Positions 1,453 to 6,091 of a stretch of 6,091 nucleotides of DNA are shown in pieces. Position numbers and translations under genes: made by a program. Where the stretch lies: assembly GCA_002413095.1 (NCBI GenBank), contig DHWI01000005.1, positions 66,770-72,860 of the forward strand, read 5' to 3'. The notes beneath the pieces were generated by a model. It saw only the letters and a program-made list of their open reading frames with translations, searched no databases and was not told where the DNA came from. Numbering within the stretch: position 1 is the stretch's first letter; each line of letters starts with the position of its first letter. Source of the DNA: Thermoleophilia bacterium UBA5186 (GTDB taxonomy: Bacteria; Actinomycetota; Thermoleophilia; Gaiellales; Gaiellaceae).

Positions 1453-3108
1453 CTAGACGGGAACGGGCGGGGCCAGCCGCGACAGGACGACCATCTCCGC
1501 GGCCTGCCGGCTCTCGGGGTCGCCGTTGACGGCGGCGAGGAAGTCGTCGCGTGCGAGCGCGAGCAGGTCGACGTCGGTGCCCGCGCGCACGGTCGCCGTT
1601 CGCGGCACGTCTCGCAGGAGCGCGATCTCCCCGAAGTAGCCGCCGGCACCGTGCACCGACAGAGGCTGCCCGTCGGGAACGATCTCGACCTCGCCGCGCT
1701 CGACGATGTAGAAGCGATCGCCCGGCTCGCCGGCACGGATGATCTCGCTCCCGGCCGTAGCGTGGACGGGCACGAGGCGTGACGCGCTCCGTTCGAGGGC
1801 CGGCGCCGGCAGGGGCGCGAAGATCGGAATGGCGCGGAGCAGCTGCACTCGAGCGAGGGGCGGGGTCGCACTGGAGTCGATCACGGCGAGCCGGCGCCAC
1901 GTCAGCGCGACGAGGACCGGAAGGAAGGCGCCCGTGACAACGAGCGCGCCCCGGGCGCCTATGCCCGCGATCAGGAGCGGGGCCGCGGCCGCGCCGAGGG
2001 CGATCGAGCCGACGATGAGGCTCTCGAGCACCCCGAAGACCCTCGCCAGCACCTCGTCGTCGGCAGACCGCTGGAGCAACGTCATCCCGGCCACGTCGAC
2101 GATGGTGTTGCCGACACCGACGCAGCCGAGCATGGCGATTGCGAGGACGGCGCTCGGCCAGACGCCGATCAGCGCGATCGGAAACCCCCAGAGCACCATG
2201 CCGAGGCCAAATCCGACCGCGAGCCGTTCGCGCCCGACGAACACTGCCGCTGCGACCGCGCCCAGAAGCCCTCCGACGCCGAGCGCCGAATTGAGGATGC
2301 CGACGCCCGAGCTGCCGAGTCCCACAACTTCGATCGAGGCGACGACGACCAGCACGCTCAAGGCGCCCATGACGAAGGTCTGCGCGGCGAAGAGGCCGAC
2401 CAGCACGCGCAGGCCCCGGTCGCCTGCGATCGCGCGGAAGCCTCCCGCGGCGTGCGCGAGGAACGGCTGCCGTTCCGCGCGCTCGCTGGTCTTCGGTGCC
2501 GGCTTGGGCGTGATCCGGAGCACGAGTGCCGCAGACCAGACGAACGTGGCGGCGGTCACGAGGAAGACGACGCCGGTGGACGAGACTGCGAGCAGGAAAG
2601 CGCCCAATGCGGGGCCGATGAAGATTCCCGCGCTTTCGATCGTCGACGCGACGACGTTCGCCGCAGTCAGCTCCTGCGGCGTCCGGGCGAGGGACGGCAC
2701 AAGCGCGGCCTGAGCCGGCCTGAAGGCCGTCCCGGTCACGGCGACGAGCCCGGAGAGGACGTACACGATCCAGACAGGGGCGCCGGCGAAGACGATTGCG
2801 GCCGCCGTGACCAGGGTCGCTGCGCGGATCGCGTCGGCCGCGACCATCACTCGCGCCCGTGGGAGGCGGTCGCCGAGAGACCCGGTCAGCGGGGCAGCCA
2901 GTGCCGCCGCCGTCCAGCGGGCGAAGCCGACGAGGCCGACGGCAGTCGCCCCGCCCGCGTCGTAGGCAAAGACCACGAGCCCGACGCCATACGCCCAGGT
3001 ACCGATCATGGAGCCTGCCCAGGCGAGCTCGAGGCGTCGCAGGTCGGGATTCCTGAAGACGTCGCGGAACGCGTGCAGCGACTCTGCGACTCGTGTTGCG
3101 GCCTTCAC
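1453..3108 (-). CDS. MFS transporter with C-terminal cyclic nucleotide-binding domain
   Basis: The 551-residue protein joins two parts. Residues 1 to about 408 are a major facilitator superfamily transporter of the EntS-like (MFS_3) type with about 12 membrane segments. The loop-2/3 signature is visible as GSLGDRLPRARVMVAAD (76-92), and FRPAQAALVPSL (129-140) is a common block of this subgroup. A short linker leads to a CNBD at about 422-545, including RAGEPGDRFYIVERGEVEIV (458-477) and the phosphate-binding cassette YFGEIALLRDVPRTATV (491-507) with Glu494 and Arg503. The cytosolic CNBD presumably gates or regulates export when it binds cAMP or cGMP; the transported substrate is unknown. The GTG start at 3108 gives a normal N-terminus (MKAATRVAESLHAFRDVFRN), with no ATG nearby upstream in frame and only a weak ribosome site. 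It ends tail to tail with the MBL gene. The frame is intact over the fusion, so this is a genuine two-domain gene. Confidence 0.93.
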   Translation of the reverse strand: MKAATRVAESLHAFRDVFRNPDLRRLELAWAGSMIGTWAYGVGLVVFAYDAGGATAVGLVGFARWTAAALAAPLTGSLGDRLPRARVMVAADAIRAATLVTAAAIVFAGAPVWIVYVLSGLVAVTGTAFRPAQAALVPSLARTPQELTAANVVASTIESAGIFIGPALGAFLLAVSSTGVVFLVTAATFVWSAALVLRITPKPAPKTSERAERQPFLAHAAGGFRAIAGDRGLRVLVGLFAAQTFVMGALSVLVVVASIEVVGLGSSGVGILNSALGVGGLLGAVAAAVFVGRERLAVGFGLGMVLWGFPIALIGVWPSAVLAIAMLGCVGVGNTIVDVAGMTLLQRSADDEVLARVFGVLESLIVGSIALGAAAAPLLIAGIGARGALVVTGAFLPVLVALTWRRLAVIDSSATPPLARVQLLRAIPIFAPLPAPALERSASRLVPVHATAGSEIIRAGEPGDRFYIVERGEVEIVPDGQPLSVHGAGGYFGEIALLRDVPRTATVRAGTDVDLLALARDDFLAAVNGDPESRQAAEMVVLSRLAPPVPV

Positions 3109-3226: not shown

Positions 3227-3391
3227 ATGTCAGAAGGACAGGATGAGCACGTCCGCTCCGAAGAGGAAGAGAAGGAAGAGCCGGACGTCGAGGCTCATCG
3301 CGCAGATATCGGCCGGGCCGACGTAGGCCGGGCCGACGTAGGCCGTGCGGACGTAGGCATGGAAAGCGAAACGGACCGTAACGAGCCCTAG
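3227..3391 (+). CDS. Small acidic peptide (54 aa) with RAD[I/V]G tandem repeats
   Basis: The gene encodes a 54-residue, highly charged, hydrophilic peptide. Residues 1-20 are rich in Glu and Asp (MSEGQDEHVRSEEEEKEEPD), followed by VEAHR and four exact five-residue units RAD[I/V]G (25-44), then a polar tail MESETDRNEP. There is no signal peptide, membrane segment or cysteine, so it is probably cytosolic and disordered except perhaps in the repeat. An excellent ribosome site (3217-3223) and a terminator-like hairpin directly after it support a real gene. I do not recognise its family. The acidic N-terminal part followed by a repeat core is the layout seen in some precursor peptides of ribosomally made, modified products, but no modifying enzyme of a known class lies nearby; it could equally be a small interaction or stress protein. 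It converges on the GAF/S8 peptidase operon. Confidence 0.75.
   Translation: MSEGQDEHVRSEEEEKEEPDVEAHRADIGRADVGRADVGRADVGMESETDRNEP
3299..3358 (+). repeat. Four tandem 15-bp units inside the small peptide gene
   Basis: Four in-frame 15-base units encode Arg-Ala-Asp-Ile/Val-Gly. Units 2 and 3 (3314-3328 and 3329-3343) are identical in DNA (CGGGCCGACGTAGGC); unit 1 carries GAT ATC instead of GAC GTA, and unit 4 differs by two bases (CGTGCGGACGTAGGC). The near-identity at DNA level points to recent unit duplication, so the copy number may vary between strains. Confidence 0.9.
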
Positions 3392-3412: not shown

Positions 3413-3440
3413 ACTGAGCCCGGCTCCAGCCGGGCTCAGT
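3413..3440. terminator. Perfect 13-bp hairpin at a convergent gene junction
   Basis: ACTGAGCCCGGCT (3413-3425) pairs without mismatch with AGCCGGGCTCAGT (3428-3440) around only two loop bases, so in RNA the inner pairs would open to a 4-6 base loop. The right arm contains the stop codon of the GAF gene (3436-3438). No T-run follows in either direction. It probably ends transcription both of the small peptide gene (plus) and of the GAF operon (minus). Confidence 0.6.
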
Positions 3441-4086
3441 CGTTCTCGGGGCGTTCGGCGAGCAGCTCGTCGATCGCCCCGAGCAAACGCAGCGCCGCTT
3501 CTCGCCTGGGCTTCGCCCCGTCGTCGAGGGCCCGCGCGATCCGCGCCACGACCGCGAGCTCGCCACCCTCTACTGCGGCCCGTGCGCGCCGCGCCCGCTG
3601 GAGCAGATCGAGCGCGATCGCGGCCTGATTCGCGAAGAGGCCCAGCAGCTCGATCTCAGCCAGGCTGAAGCGGGTCTCCTGCGGTCGGTCGAGCACTTCG
3701 AGCACACCGAGCGCGCGCTCTTCATGGAGGAGCGGGACCGCCATCAGCCCGCTCGGGACGTAGCCGGTGCTCTCCGCAGCGTCTCGCGCGAAGCGAGGAT
3801 CGTCACCGACGTTTTCGATCACAAGCGGCTGGCGCGCGACCAGCACCCAGCCGGCAATTCCGGTGCTCGACGGAAACCGACGGCCCCGGAGCGTCTCGGA
3901 GCCTTCGCCGGCGACTGCTTCGAACACGAGCTCGTCAGTCTCCTCGTCGAGCAGGAAGATGGACGAAGCCTGCGCGCGGAAGATCGCCCGGGCGACTTCC
4001 ACCACGGATTGCAGGAGCCTCTGGAACGACTCCTCGGCGCCGAGCACACCAGCCGCAACCGCTGCCCGGAGCTCCTCGTCGCTCAT
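3436..4086 (-). CDS. GAF-domain protein, partner of the upstream S8 peptidase
   Basis: The 216-residue protein consists of a short N-terminal helix (1-20), one GAF domain (about 20-163) and a helical C-terminal tail rich in Ala, Arg and Glu (164-216). GAF signatures include ASSIFLLDEETDELVFEAV (40-58), GIAGWVLVARQPLVIENV (76-93), DPRF (96-99) and MAVPLL (115-120) followed by LGVLEVLDR (126-134). GAF domains bind small ligands (cyclic nucleotides, haem, bilins) or mediate dimerisation; no Cys or other obvious pigment anchor is visible, so the ligand is unknown. There is no kinase, cyclase or DNA-binding domain attached. Its ATG overlaps the peptidase stop by four bases (ATGA at 4083-4086), so translation is coupled and the two products probably act together, with the GAF protein as sensor or regulator of the protease. 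That role is inference. Confidence 0.88.
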   Translation of the reverse strand: MSDEELRAAVAAGVLGAEESFQRLLQSVVEVARAIFRAQASSIFLLDEETDELVFEAVAGEGSETLRGRRFPSSTGIAGWVLVARQPLVIENVGDDPRFARDAAESTGYVPSGLMAVPLLHEERALGVLEVLDRPQETRFSLAEIELLGLFANQAAIALDLLQRARRARAAVEGGELAVVARIARALDDGAKPRREAALRLLGAIDELLAERPEND

Positions 4087-4901
4087 CCCTCACCGCCCAC
4101 GTTCGACGCGGTCAGGTAGAGCAGGCTCTTGAGCTGGAACGGCGTCAGCTCGGGGTGCTTGCTCAGCACAAGGGCGCAGATCCCCGAGATGTGAGGGGTG
4201 GCGAAGCTGTTTCCGGTCACATGCAAGCTGCCGCCGCCGAGCCAAGCGACCTCGAGATTGAGTCCGCGCGCAAAGAACTCGACCGGTGGGCGCGGGTTGT
4301 AGTAGTACGCGAAAGGGTCGTCCTCCTCATGGCTGCCGACGGAGATGACCGAGGAAAAGCGCCAGGGATAGCTCTCGACGGGCATGTTGTGAGCCGAGGC
4401 GACCAGCATCGTGCGGCGGAAATAGGCGCTGTCGGCGAGTTCGTGCAACGTACTCGCGAATTGGCGCTTCGTTGTCGAGAGGCTCATGTTGATCACGTCG
4501 AAGTCGTGTTCGATCGCCCAGCGGAGACCTGCCAGCATGACGCTTCCGCTGCCGGTGTACCCCGCGCCCAGGACGCGCACGCTGGAGATCGAACAATCGG
4601 GCGCCAGCGATCGAACGATGCCGGCGCAGGCCGTCCCGTGCCCGCAGAGGTCGCCTTCGGTGTCCTCCACTACCGTCACGTCGTCGCCCACCGCGGTGAG
4701 CGCCACCGTTTGGTCGATCGAGCCGACGAGCGGATGCCCGGGCTCGATGCCGCTGTCGAGTATGCAGATGCGGACGCCGGCTCCGGTCGCGCCGCCCCAC
4801 GCCCAGCTGCGCGTGACGCGCTCGGGCCAGTCCGGGGACACCGCCAGCTCTCCGAGAGCTTCGGCGGAGAGGCTCCAGGCAGGACGCGGCTCGTTCGACA
4901 C
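4083..4901 (-). CDS. Subtilisin-like S8 family serine peptidase, no signal peptide
   Basis: The 272-residue protein carries the complete subtilase triad: Asp49 in ICILDSGIEPGHP (45-57), His88 in GDLCGHGTACAGIV (83-96) and Ser232 in TGNSFATPHISG (229-240). Asn172 (ASAHN) fits the oxyanion-hole position, though the usual Gly before it is His. VINMSLS (136-142) is the conserved SG-like beta strand. The N-terminus (MSNEPRPAWSLSAEALGELA) has no signal peptide and no obvious I9 prodomain, so the enzyme is likely intracellular and made in short, nearly prodomain-free form. The GTG start at 4901 lacks a ribosome site but has a -10-like TAGACT seven bases upstream, compatible with a leaderless mRNA. 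It is the first gene of a two-gene operon with the GAF protein and is divergent from the 67-aa protein gene. Substrate unknown; regulated intracellular proteolysis or peptide maturation are possible. Confidence 0.92.
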   Translation of the reverse strand: MSNEPRPAWSLSAEALGELAVSPDWPERVTRSWAWGGATGAGVRICILDSGIEPGHPLVGSIDQTVALTAVGDDVTVVEDTEGDLCGHGTACAGIVRSLAPDCSISSVRVLGAGYTGSGSVMLAGLRWAIEHDFDVINMSLSTTKRQFASTLHELADSAYFRRTMLVASAHNMPVESYPWRFSSVISVGSHEEDDPFAYYYNPRPPVEFFARGLNLEVAWLGGGSLHVTGNSFATPHISGICALVLSKHPELTPFQLKSLLYLTASNVGGEG

Positions 4902-5189: not shown

Positions 5190-5207
5190 GGCGAGCACAG
5201 GGAGGCG

Positions 5208-5248
5208 AGAGCCGTCCGGATCAAAGTCCGGGCGGCTCTTGTCTTTTT
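5208..5248 (+). terminator. Strong rho-independent terminator
   Basis: AGAGCCGTCCGGA (5208-5220) pairs with TCCGGGCGGCTCT (5227-5239): 13 pairs including one U-G wobble, with a 6-base loop TCAAAG, followed by TGTCTTTTT (5240-5248). It ends the transcript of the 67-aa gene and separates it from the GFP-like gene. Confidence 0.92.
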
Positions 5249-5267: not shown

Positions 5268-5312
5268 CCTCGCAGTTCTCGGACCTGCGGCCACTTAAGG
5301 AAGCGAGGCGCG

Positions 5313-5960
5313 ATGAACATCGTGATCCCAGACCAGCTCGAGCAACAGACCTTCCTGCACGGAACCGTCAACGGGGAGAAGTTCAAGATGCGCGGCGGGG
5401 GCATGGGAGCTCCGCACGAGGGGGCGGTCGCGACCGATCTCGCCACGAATCCCGGCCCGGTGGGCTTCCCGATGGGCCTCATGGGCTGCAGCATCATCAT
5501 GGGCTTCCCGACGTTCAGCAAGTACCCACCCGGCACCCACGACCTGTTCAAGATCTCGGACGGCTACGAGTACGAGCGGCACCTGCGCTTCGAGTCCGGC
5601 GGGACGCTCGACACGATCAGCAAGGTCACCTATCACGGTTCGCGGGGCGACGAGTTCCACGTGGAGCACGTCGAGGGCGATTTCGAGGTCGACGGCAAGG
5701 TCGAGGCCCCCGAGCTCGTCGGCATCGACCCGGTCGTGGAGACCTTCGAGCCGGCCGGCCCGGGACGGATCAAGAGCACTTTCCGGATCGTCTGGCGGAC
5801 AAAGGACGGCGGCGAGTTCGCGGCTCACGCCGACAACGTCTACCACCTCAAGCACAAGCAGGAGTTGCCGTTCAAGCACGAGCGGCGGATCGAGTTCGAC
5901 TCGCAGTTCAGCCCGGACCGCATCCGGCAGTCCGAGCGCTTGACGATGTCCCCAGCGTAA
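5313..5960 (+). CDS. GFP-like beta-barrel protein (green fluorescent protein family homologue) lacking the chromophore tyrosine
   Basis: The 215-residue protein aligns with Aequorea GFP and coral DsRed from end to end by eye, and its length fits the family (about 220-240). Seen: GTVNGEKF (17-24) matches DsRed GTVNGHEF; a glycine-rich GGGMGAPHEG (28-37) matches GEGEGRPYEG; MGFPTFSKYP (63-72) matches GFP YGVQCFSRYP (66-75); HDLFK (76-80) matches HDFFK; GYEYER (84-89) matches GYVQER (91-96); the later TKDGGEF (163-169), NVYHLK (175-180) and ELP (184-186) match DsRed KDGGHY, SIYMAK and QLP. Thus Gly64 equals GFP Gly67 and Arg89 equals the catalytic Arg96, but the triad Ser-Tyr-Gly reads Ile62-Met63-Gly64, with no aromatic residue. 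The Glu222 position appears to be Arg205, though alignment there is loose. A normal GFP fluorophore is therefore not expected; it may be a colourless scaffold, a ligand binder, or hold an unusual backbone modification. No signal peptide. A class III cyclase starts nine bases downstream. Confidence 0.85.
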   Translation: MNIVIPDQLEQQTFLHGTVNGEKFKMRGGGMGAPHEGAVATDLATNPGPVGFPMGLMGCSIIMGFPTFSKYPPGTHDLFKISDGYEYERHLRFESGGTLDTISKVTYHGSRGDEFHVEHVEGDFEVDGKVEAPELVGIDPVVETFEPAGPGRIKSTFRIVWRTKDGGEFAAHADNVYHLKHKQELPFKHERRIEFDSQFSPDRIRQSERLTMSPA

Positions 5961-5969
5961 GCTCGGCCA

Positions 5970-6091
5970 ATGGTCAGGAAGACCGTCACGGTCGTCTTCG
6001 TCGACCTGACGGATTCCACTTCGCTCGGCGAGTCGCTCGACGCCGAGGCGCTTCGGGGCGTGCTCGACCGCTACTTCTCGGTCGCTTCCGG
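5970..6091 (+). CDS. Class III adenylate/guanylate cyclase, N-terminal fragment cut by the window edge
   Basis: Only the first 40 codons are in the window. They read MVRKTVTVVFVDLTDSTSLG, then ESLDAEALRGVLDRYFSVAS, which is the start of a class III nucleotidyl cyclase catalytic domain: the first beta strand with the metal-binding Asp12 in VFVDLTDST, then the helix LDAEALRGVLDRYF. The domain sits at the very N-terminus with no leading sensor domain. In actinobacteria such genes often encode long proteins with the cyclase domain followed by an ATPase and TPR repeats, but the rest is not visible. The product would be cAMP or cGMP; substrate-choosing residues lie beyond the edge. The gene is nine bases after the GFP-like gene in the same direction, without its own clear ribosome site, so co-transcription and translational coupling are likely. 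Confidence 0.88.
   Translation, partial: MVRKTVTVVFVDLTDSTSLGESLDAEALRGVLDRYFSVAS

Follow-up and report, generated by a model that had tools for sequence, protein, structure and literature searches.

The window analysed here is a 6,091-nucleotide stretch of the genome of Thermoleophilia bacterium UBA5186 (G000:C195:66770-72860), taken from a 74,006-base contig of an assembly that spans 2.6 Mb and is 68% complete. It contains five genes with clear Pfam matches, the beginning of a cyclase gene and an open reading frame (ORF), P0001, that runs from ATG to TAA and encodes a relative of green fluorescent protein (GFP). P0001 carries a methionine in place of the chromophore tyrosine, together with the glycine, arginine and glutamate of GFP maturation. 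The features of the locus are listed below, those of the GFP-like gene first.

5313-5960, + strand: GFP-superfamily gene P0001, 215 aa (phmmer, profile, predicted fold, hhalign)
5297-5308, + strand: putative purine-rich, ribosome-site-like stretch ahead of the P0001 ATG (read from the sequence)
5496-5504, + strand: codons of Ile62-Met63-Gly64, at the place of GFP tripeptide 65-67 (DsRed Gln66-Tyr67-Gly68), Met for Tyr (gapless mPlum alignment)
5577-5579, + strand: Arg89, equivalent to GFP Arg96; Arg in 70/72 family rows
5739-5741, + strand: Glu143, equivalent to DsRed Glu148 and copepod Glu140; 69/70 rows with a letter
5883-5885, + strand: Arg191, equivalent to copepod Arg195, also Arg in lancelet; 68/69 rows with a letter
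5934-5936, + strand: Glu208, equivalent to GFP Glu222; 67/68 rows with a letter, the remaining one Asp
175-582, - strand: cyclic-nucleotide (cNMP)-binding protein (Pfam)
631-1353, + strand: metallo-beta-lactamase-fold protein (Pfam)
1453-3108, - strand: major facilitator superfamily (MFS) transporter with a C-terminal cNMP-binding domain (Pfam)
3436-4086, - strand: GAF protein (Pfam)
4083-4901, - strand: subtilase (Pfam)
5201-5246, + strand: strong hairpin (21 bp stem, -37.9 kcal/mol, z -6.35) between an upstream small ORF and the P0001 gene
5970-6091, + strand: start of a class III nucleotidyl cyclase gene with an AAA_16 ATPase domain, extending past the window across a run of N

A preliminary description of this DNA, made from its letters, had proposed a GFP-superfamily protein in a bacterial-type genome, citing ordered motifs that do occur in P0001. 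The proposal has held up. A phmmer search of chains in the Protein Data Bank (PDB) matched P0001 to fluorescent proteins with a best E of 7.9e-19, with 969 distinct sequences at E<=1, of which the best 60 were listed. In a local control, seven animal fluorescent proteins scored E 1.1e-19 to 5.8e-9 against P0001, to which they are 24-28% identical, and none of 10,000 shuffled fluorescent-protein sequences was reported at E<=10. Profile-profile comparison by hhalign of the bacterial family with four animal fluorescent proteins, the kind of check first envisaged, gave a probability of 99.7 and E 2.8e-27. Structure prediction likewise returned the anticipated 11-stranded barrel around a central helix (a second relative was also predicted); DSSP assigns 13 strand segments to the P0001 model, which become 11 after joining 135-138 with 141-147 and omitting the short segment 2-4. 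The Pfam profile gave a divided answer, in that PF01353 does match P0001 (E 5.8e-4) at 20.4 bits, just below the cut-off of 22. Since P0001 scores below that cut-off, a PF01353 search of the genome returned nothing (its control was likewise without a match), while a protein search does find P0001. The same profile is matched at E<=0.01 by 29 of the 32 family members scanned, and PF01353.28 is precomputed for 22/22 relatives of one search and 71/72 of another. NCBIfam gave no match above cut-off for the 4 relatives tried, P0033 alone producing a weak match far under that threshold, and PADLOC gave none for 3. We regard membership of P0001 in the GFP superfamily as practically certain.

The alignments locate the chromophore site of P0001. 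Pro49-Pro72 aligns without gaps with the DsRed derivative mPlum in the phmmer alignment, and the alignment with copepod GFP agrees on the placement of Ile62-Met63-Gly64. Position counts were made over 72 of 74 proteins, with fragments P0043 and P0044 left out and other fragments kept. At GFP position 66, 41 family rows have Met, 27 Phe, 3 Thr and a single row Leu; Tyr occurs in none, and the x-Tyr-Gly tripeptide of GFP-type fluorescent proteins reads Ile-Met-Gly in P0001. The maturation residues Gly67, Arg96 and Glu222 are all present, as Gly64, Arg89 and Glu208, the last equivalence coming from a MAFFT alignment (the HMMER and hhalign alignments end before Glu208). The substitution of Met63 for the chromophore tyrosine, missed in the preliminary description, is the most informative feature of the protein and, read from the sequence, excludes an ordinary GFP chromophore. 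The bacterial family thus shares with the animal fluorescent proteins of PF01353 (Aequorea GFP, DsRed, copepod and lancelet GFP) the predicted barrel and central helix, Gly67, Arg96, Glu222, a G-rich second strand and overall similarity. It differs from them in being bacterial, in having Met, Phe, Thr or Leu at 66 rather than the xYG tripeptide, and in a Pro at GFP position 69 (72/72 rows) and a Thr at 70 (69/72). The Met type, unlike its animal counterparts, is expected to show no visible fluorescence.

Successive searches yielded 22, 43 and 72 proteins, which with P0045 make 73 different relatives. Scans of genome contigs found none among 28 stretches with a single-protein query and 2 among 87 with alignment A2 (32 of the 44 proteins P0001-P0044); alignments A4 and A5 had 25 and 42 rows. 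Viral contigs searched with alignment A3 gave 54 pattern stretches and 0 relatives. Relatives with a named or placed source include P0046 (uncultured Winogradskyella, 702-kb contig), P0045 (Alphaproteobacteria metagenome-assembled genome (MAG), 46-kb contig), P0059 (Bacteroidota MAG) and P0063 (Methylococcales MAG, Phe type). Where the sources name a product it is a 'hypothetical protein', the exceptions being P0027 (an actin label) and P0040 (unreadable). Two trees were built, each leaving out 10 fragments and keeping 64 family rows. In the unrooted tree of these and 7 animal rows, with chromophore columns excluded, family and animals part at 95/88, and a branch at 95/97 separates 23 Phe rows plus one Leu row from the remaining rows, which are of the Met and Thr types. 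Without avGFP, the second tree gave 88/81 for the animal split and 92/98 for the Phe rows. Monophyly of the Phe rows was not rejected by an approximately unbiased (AU) test (p 0.474).

The gene is sparsely distributed. It was found in 1/103 genomes of the window's family, 1/129 of its order, 1/399 drawn from its class and 1/396 drawn from its phylum (overlapping sets), each time in the window's own genome. Around the Winogradskyella member the counts were 1/68 for the genus and 1/329 drawn from the family, and around the alphaproteobacterium 1/316 drawn from the order, the query genome alone in every case. In Winogradskyella (L005:9764-10762) the GFP-like gene lies in a 940-bp unit with a 59-bp direct repeat on either side; the two repeats are 86% alike, and one is the 3' end of an arginine-deiminase-family gene; the unit resembles a single-gene insertion at the 3' end of a gene. 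We compared 12 loci, one being the query's own, out of 65 genomes with a match. Both the GFP-like gene and the neighbouring AAA gene were absent from 11/11 relatives' loci (about 3.65 kb each); in 6 of these 11 the stretch takes in both the PS-decarboxylase and the deiminase gene, with 0.27-0.67 kb between them, whereas in L005 the distance is 3.4 kb. The loci without the gene and this difference in spacing indicate that the Winogradskyella copy is probably a recent insertion. The adjoining gene (L005:7747-9741) encodes an AAA-domain protein of 664 aa at 27% GC, without a PADLOC match. The alphaproteobacterial gene is lower in GC (57%) than its flanks (67-73%). At L004:9484-11696, imperfect inverted repeats (24-29 nt, 79%) bracket the GFP-like gene together with the genes downstream of it. 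The resident composition of the window's gene (GC content at third codon positions, GC3, of 0.92) suggests a longer stay. From this pattern we infer that the gene has passed among bacteria.

Two explanations concern the origin of the gene. Assembly chimera, a cloning-vector reporter or animal contamination was considered, with reporter fluorescent proteins occurring in phage and plasmid records, the gene lying near the contig end and the other 102 genomes of the family lacking it. It is contradicted by the low identity to the seven animal proteins, by bacterial genes alongside and by 22 relatives, drawn from several sources and showing 48-94% identity, of which P0006 and P0015 lie on contigs of 163 kb and 104 kb, as well as by the relative within the 702-kb Winogradskyella contig. 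Sigma-70 region 2 is matched 27 times in the genome, once on the same contig at C195:1100, and the genome is bacterial on that account. WhiB, looked for as a sign of an actinobacterial genome, gave no match. The codon choice of the P0001 gene fits its five neighbours (GC3 0.82-0.88), in keeping with the bacterial codon use and base composition noted at the outset. We therefore reject contamination, whose chance is negligible, in agreement with the earlier judgement that the gene is no recent animal contaminant, and place the gene in a bacterium with near certainty. Several lines of evidence support the reading that a bacterial genome encodes a member of the GFP superfamily: the sequence and profile matches, the predicted fold, the relatives located on further bacterial contigs, and the sigma factors of the contig and genome concerned. 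When phage and plasmid collections were queried with P0021, 17 records (12 and 5) matched at 25.9-28.8% identity, 6 of them annotated mCherry; the fluorescent-protein-like matches in H1, H4, H5 and H10-H17 are labelled hypothetical, function-unknown or oddly named and are presumed to be, probably, cloned reporters. The other explanation sees in the family the ancient gift of an animal or other eukaryotic donor, not the older branch, a question of origin that fits either function discussed below. Its patchy distribution would suit such a gift, and some of the Phe group may come from eukaryotes: the leaders of P0034 and P0072 are odd, and the frames of P0043, P0072, P0073 and P0074 are broken. 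P0072 and P0074, both of the Phe type, sit on contigs longer than 1.2 Mb and may represent eukaryotic exons or long-read frameshifts. Against a gift stand named bacterial members in Alphaproteobacteria, Methylococcales, Bacteroidota and the window's lineage, and both trees, in which none of the family rows falls within the group of seven animal rows, a small sample in an unrooted tree. The trees give no direction of gene movement, being unrooted and having long animal branches, and we consider the gift somewhat unlikely.

Downstream of P0001, the cyclase ATG lies 9 bp 3' of the stop codon on the same strand. The class III cyclase reported earlier as adjoining is borne out by its domains at L003:864-2006 (PF00211, E 1.6e-7; AAA_16, E 3.7e-25), although the 40 residues within the window alone give only E 0.09 in Pfam. 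Given this spacing and the hairpin upstream of the pair, the two genes are probably co-transcribed as one transcript. The hairpin itself is probably a terminator; a scan for consensus promoters and terminators gave no match and did not list it. With two proteins that bind cNMP and a class III cyclase encoded inside 6 kb (175-582, 1453-3108 and 5970-6091), a cyclic-nucleotide signalling cluster is possible. Elsewhere in the window, a small ORF contains a tandem array of a 15-bp unit (3311-3358, 3.2 copies).

Based on the conserved residues, we propose that P0001 cyclises its Ile-Met-Gly backbone to an imidazolinone that yields no visible fluorophore and would serve as an ultraviolet (UV) chromophore or a reactive group, a reading to which we assign a probability of about 50%. 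The bend of the buried helix would bring the amide nitrogen of Gly64 onto the carbonyl carbon of Ile62, with Arg89 polarising the carbonyl and Glu208 acting as the base, as in GFP. Dehydration would then close the ring, and a subsequent oxidation, should it occur, would turn it into an alkylidene imidazolinone absorbing in the UV, which could function as a UV chromophore or as an electrophilic or redox group, not as a light emitter. In the Phe branch the same chemistry would produce a benzylidene imidazolinone absorbing in the UV or blue. The MIO group of ammonia-lyases, a non-fluorescent, backbone-made imidazolinone in a different fold, would be a mechanistic analogy only. A coral protein with Phe at the GFP 66 place forms a fluorescent chromophore, according to PMC3468514. 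That GFP-type chemistry persists in the bacterial family is suggested mainly by comparison with the ctenophore fluorescent-protein-like (FPL) proteins, which are also superfamily members without the canonical tripeptide (QTN in Mnemiopsis) and which, as described in PMC4997694, have lost Arg96 and Glu222; P0001 and its family keep both, and Gly67 as well.

Several observations weigh against cyclisation. Gly67 is present in 71/72 rows, with a gap in P0037; Arg96, in 70/72, is Gln in P0042 and Leu in P0065; and Glu222 is Asp in P0022. With 39 columns conserved at >=95%, the retention of Gly, Arg and Glu is not unique, and these residues could be kept for structure. No Met66 chromophore, natural or engineered, was found in the literature searched, where one search bore on the subject, and no neighbour gene is common to the three genomic loci seen, so that genomic context gives no function. 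PMC9202861 states that the chromophore requires an aromatic residue at 66. For Met types this requirement counts against a fluorophore but need not preclude closure of the ring, a point on which work on Y66L GFP reportedly bears. The main rival, credible though tentative, is a superfamily barrel without chromophore chemistry, a scaffold that would bind either a small ligand or another protein in the manner of nidogen G2 or the ctenophore proteins. In such a protein Arg96, Glu222 and Gly67 would maintain the bend of the helix or make up a polar pocket together with Glu143 and Arg191, two charged residues as conserved as Arg96; residue 66 is non-aromatic in 45/72 rows, and members without a chromophore are described in PMC4997694 and PMC9202861. 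The ctenophore members of this kind, however, lost Arg96 and Glu222 (PMC4997694), and Gly67 is found here in every row but the one with a deletion. Nidogen G2 shares the GFP barrel architecture; PMC4997694 and PMC2467403 describe this animal matrix domain as having no discernible sequence similarity to GFP, whereas that of the bacterial family is clear. Pfam listed no nidogen G2F profile for P0001 at E<=1, and the best 60 and 50 PDB matches listed, filled by fluorescent proteins, include no nidogen G2, which excludes nothing. It is improbable that P0001 is a light, oxygen or redox sensor acting on the co-transcribed cyclase-ATPase: the 9-bp spacing on one strand behind a strong hairpin and the two cNMP-binding proteins would suit such a role, but no cyclase was seen beside the Alphaproteobacterium and Winogradskyella genes, in stretches that were read and of which only some neighbours were Pfam-scanned.

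The searchable published surveys place natural GFP relatives in animals only, and none from bacteria was reported in the open literature searched, subscription papers and preprints lying outside its scope. A 2016 survey of the public protein database set aside its seven bacteria-labelled GFP hits as probable vectors (PMC4911609), and the Discussion of PMC4997694 suggests that non-bilaterians and single-celled eukaryotes may reveal an older origin. The origin of the GFP barrel and its self-made chromophore is open, because known relatives are animal and nidogen G2 lacks clear sequence similarity (PMC4997694, PMC2467403). We tentatively suggest, with considerable doubt, that bacteria hold an ancient, horizontally roaming GFP branch in which the backbone would cyclise itself with Met or Phe for Tyr, such that self-modifying chemistry would predate and exceed fluorescence and animal GFPs would be its coloured offshoot. 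A family that occurs naturally in bacteria and has the catalytic residues without the tyrosine offers a testable intermediate between a plain barrel and a fluorophore, and a new scaffold for self-modifying proteins.
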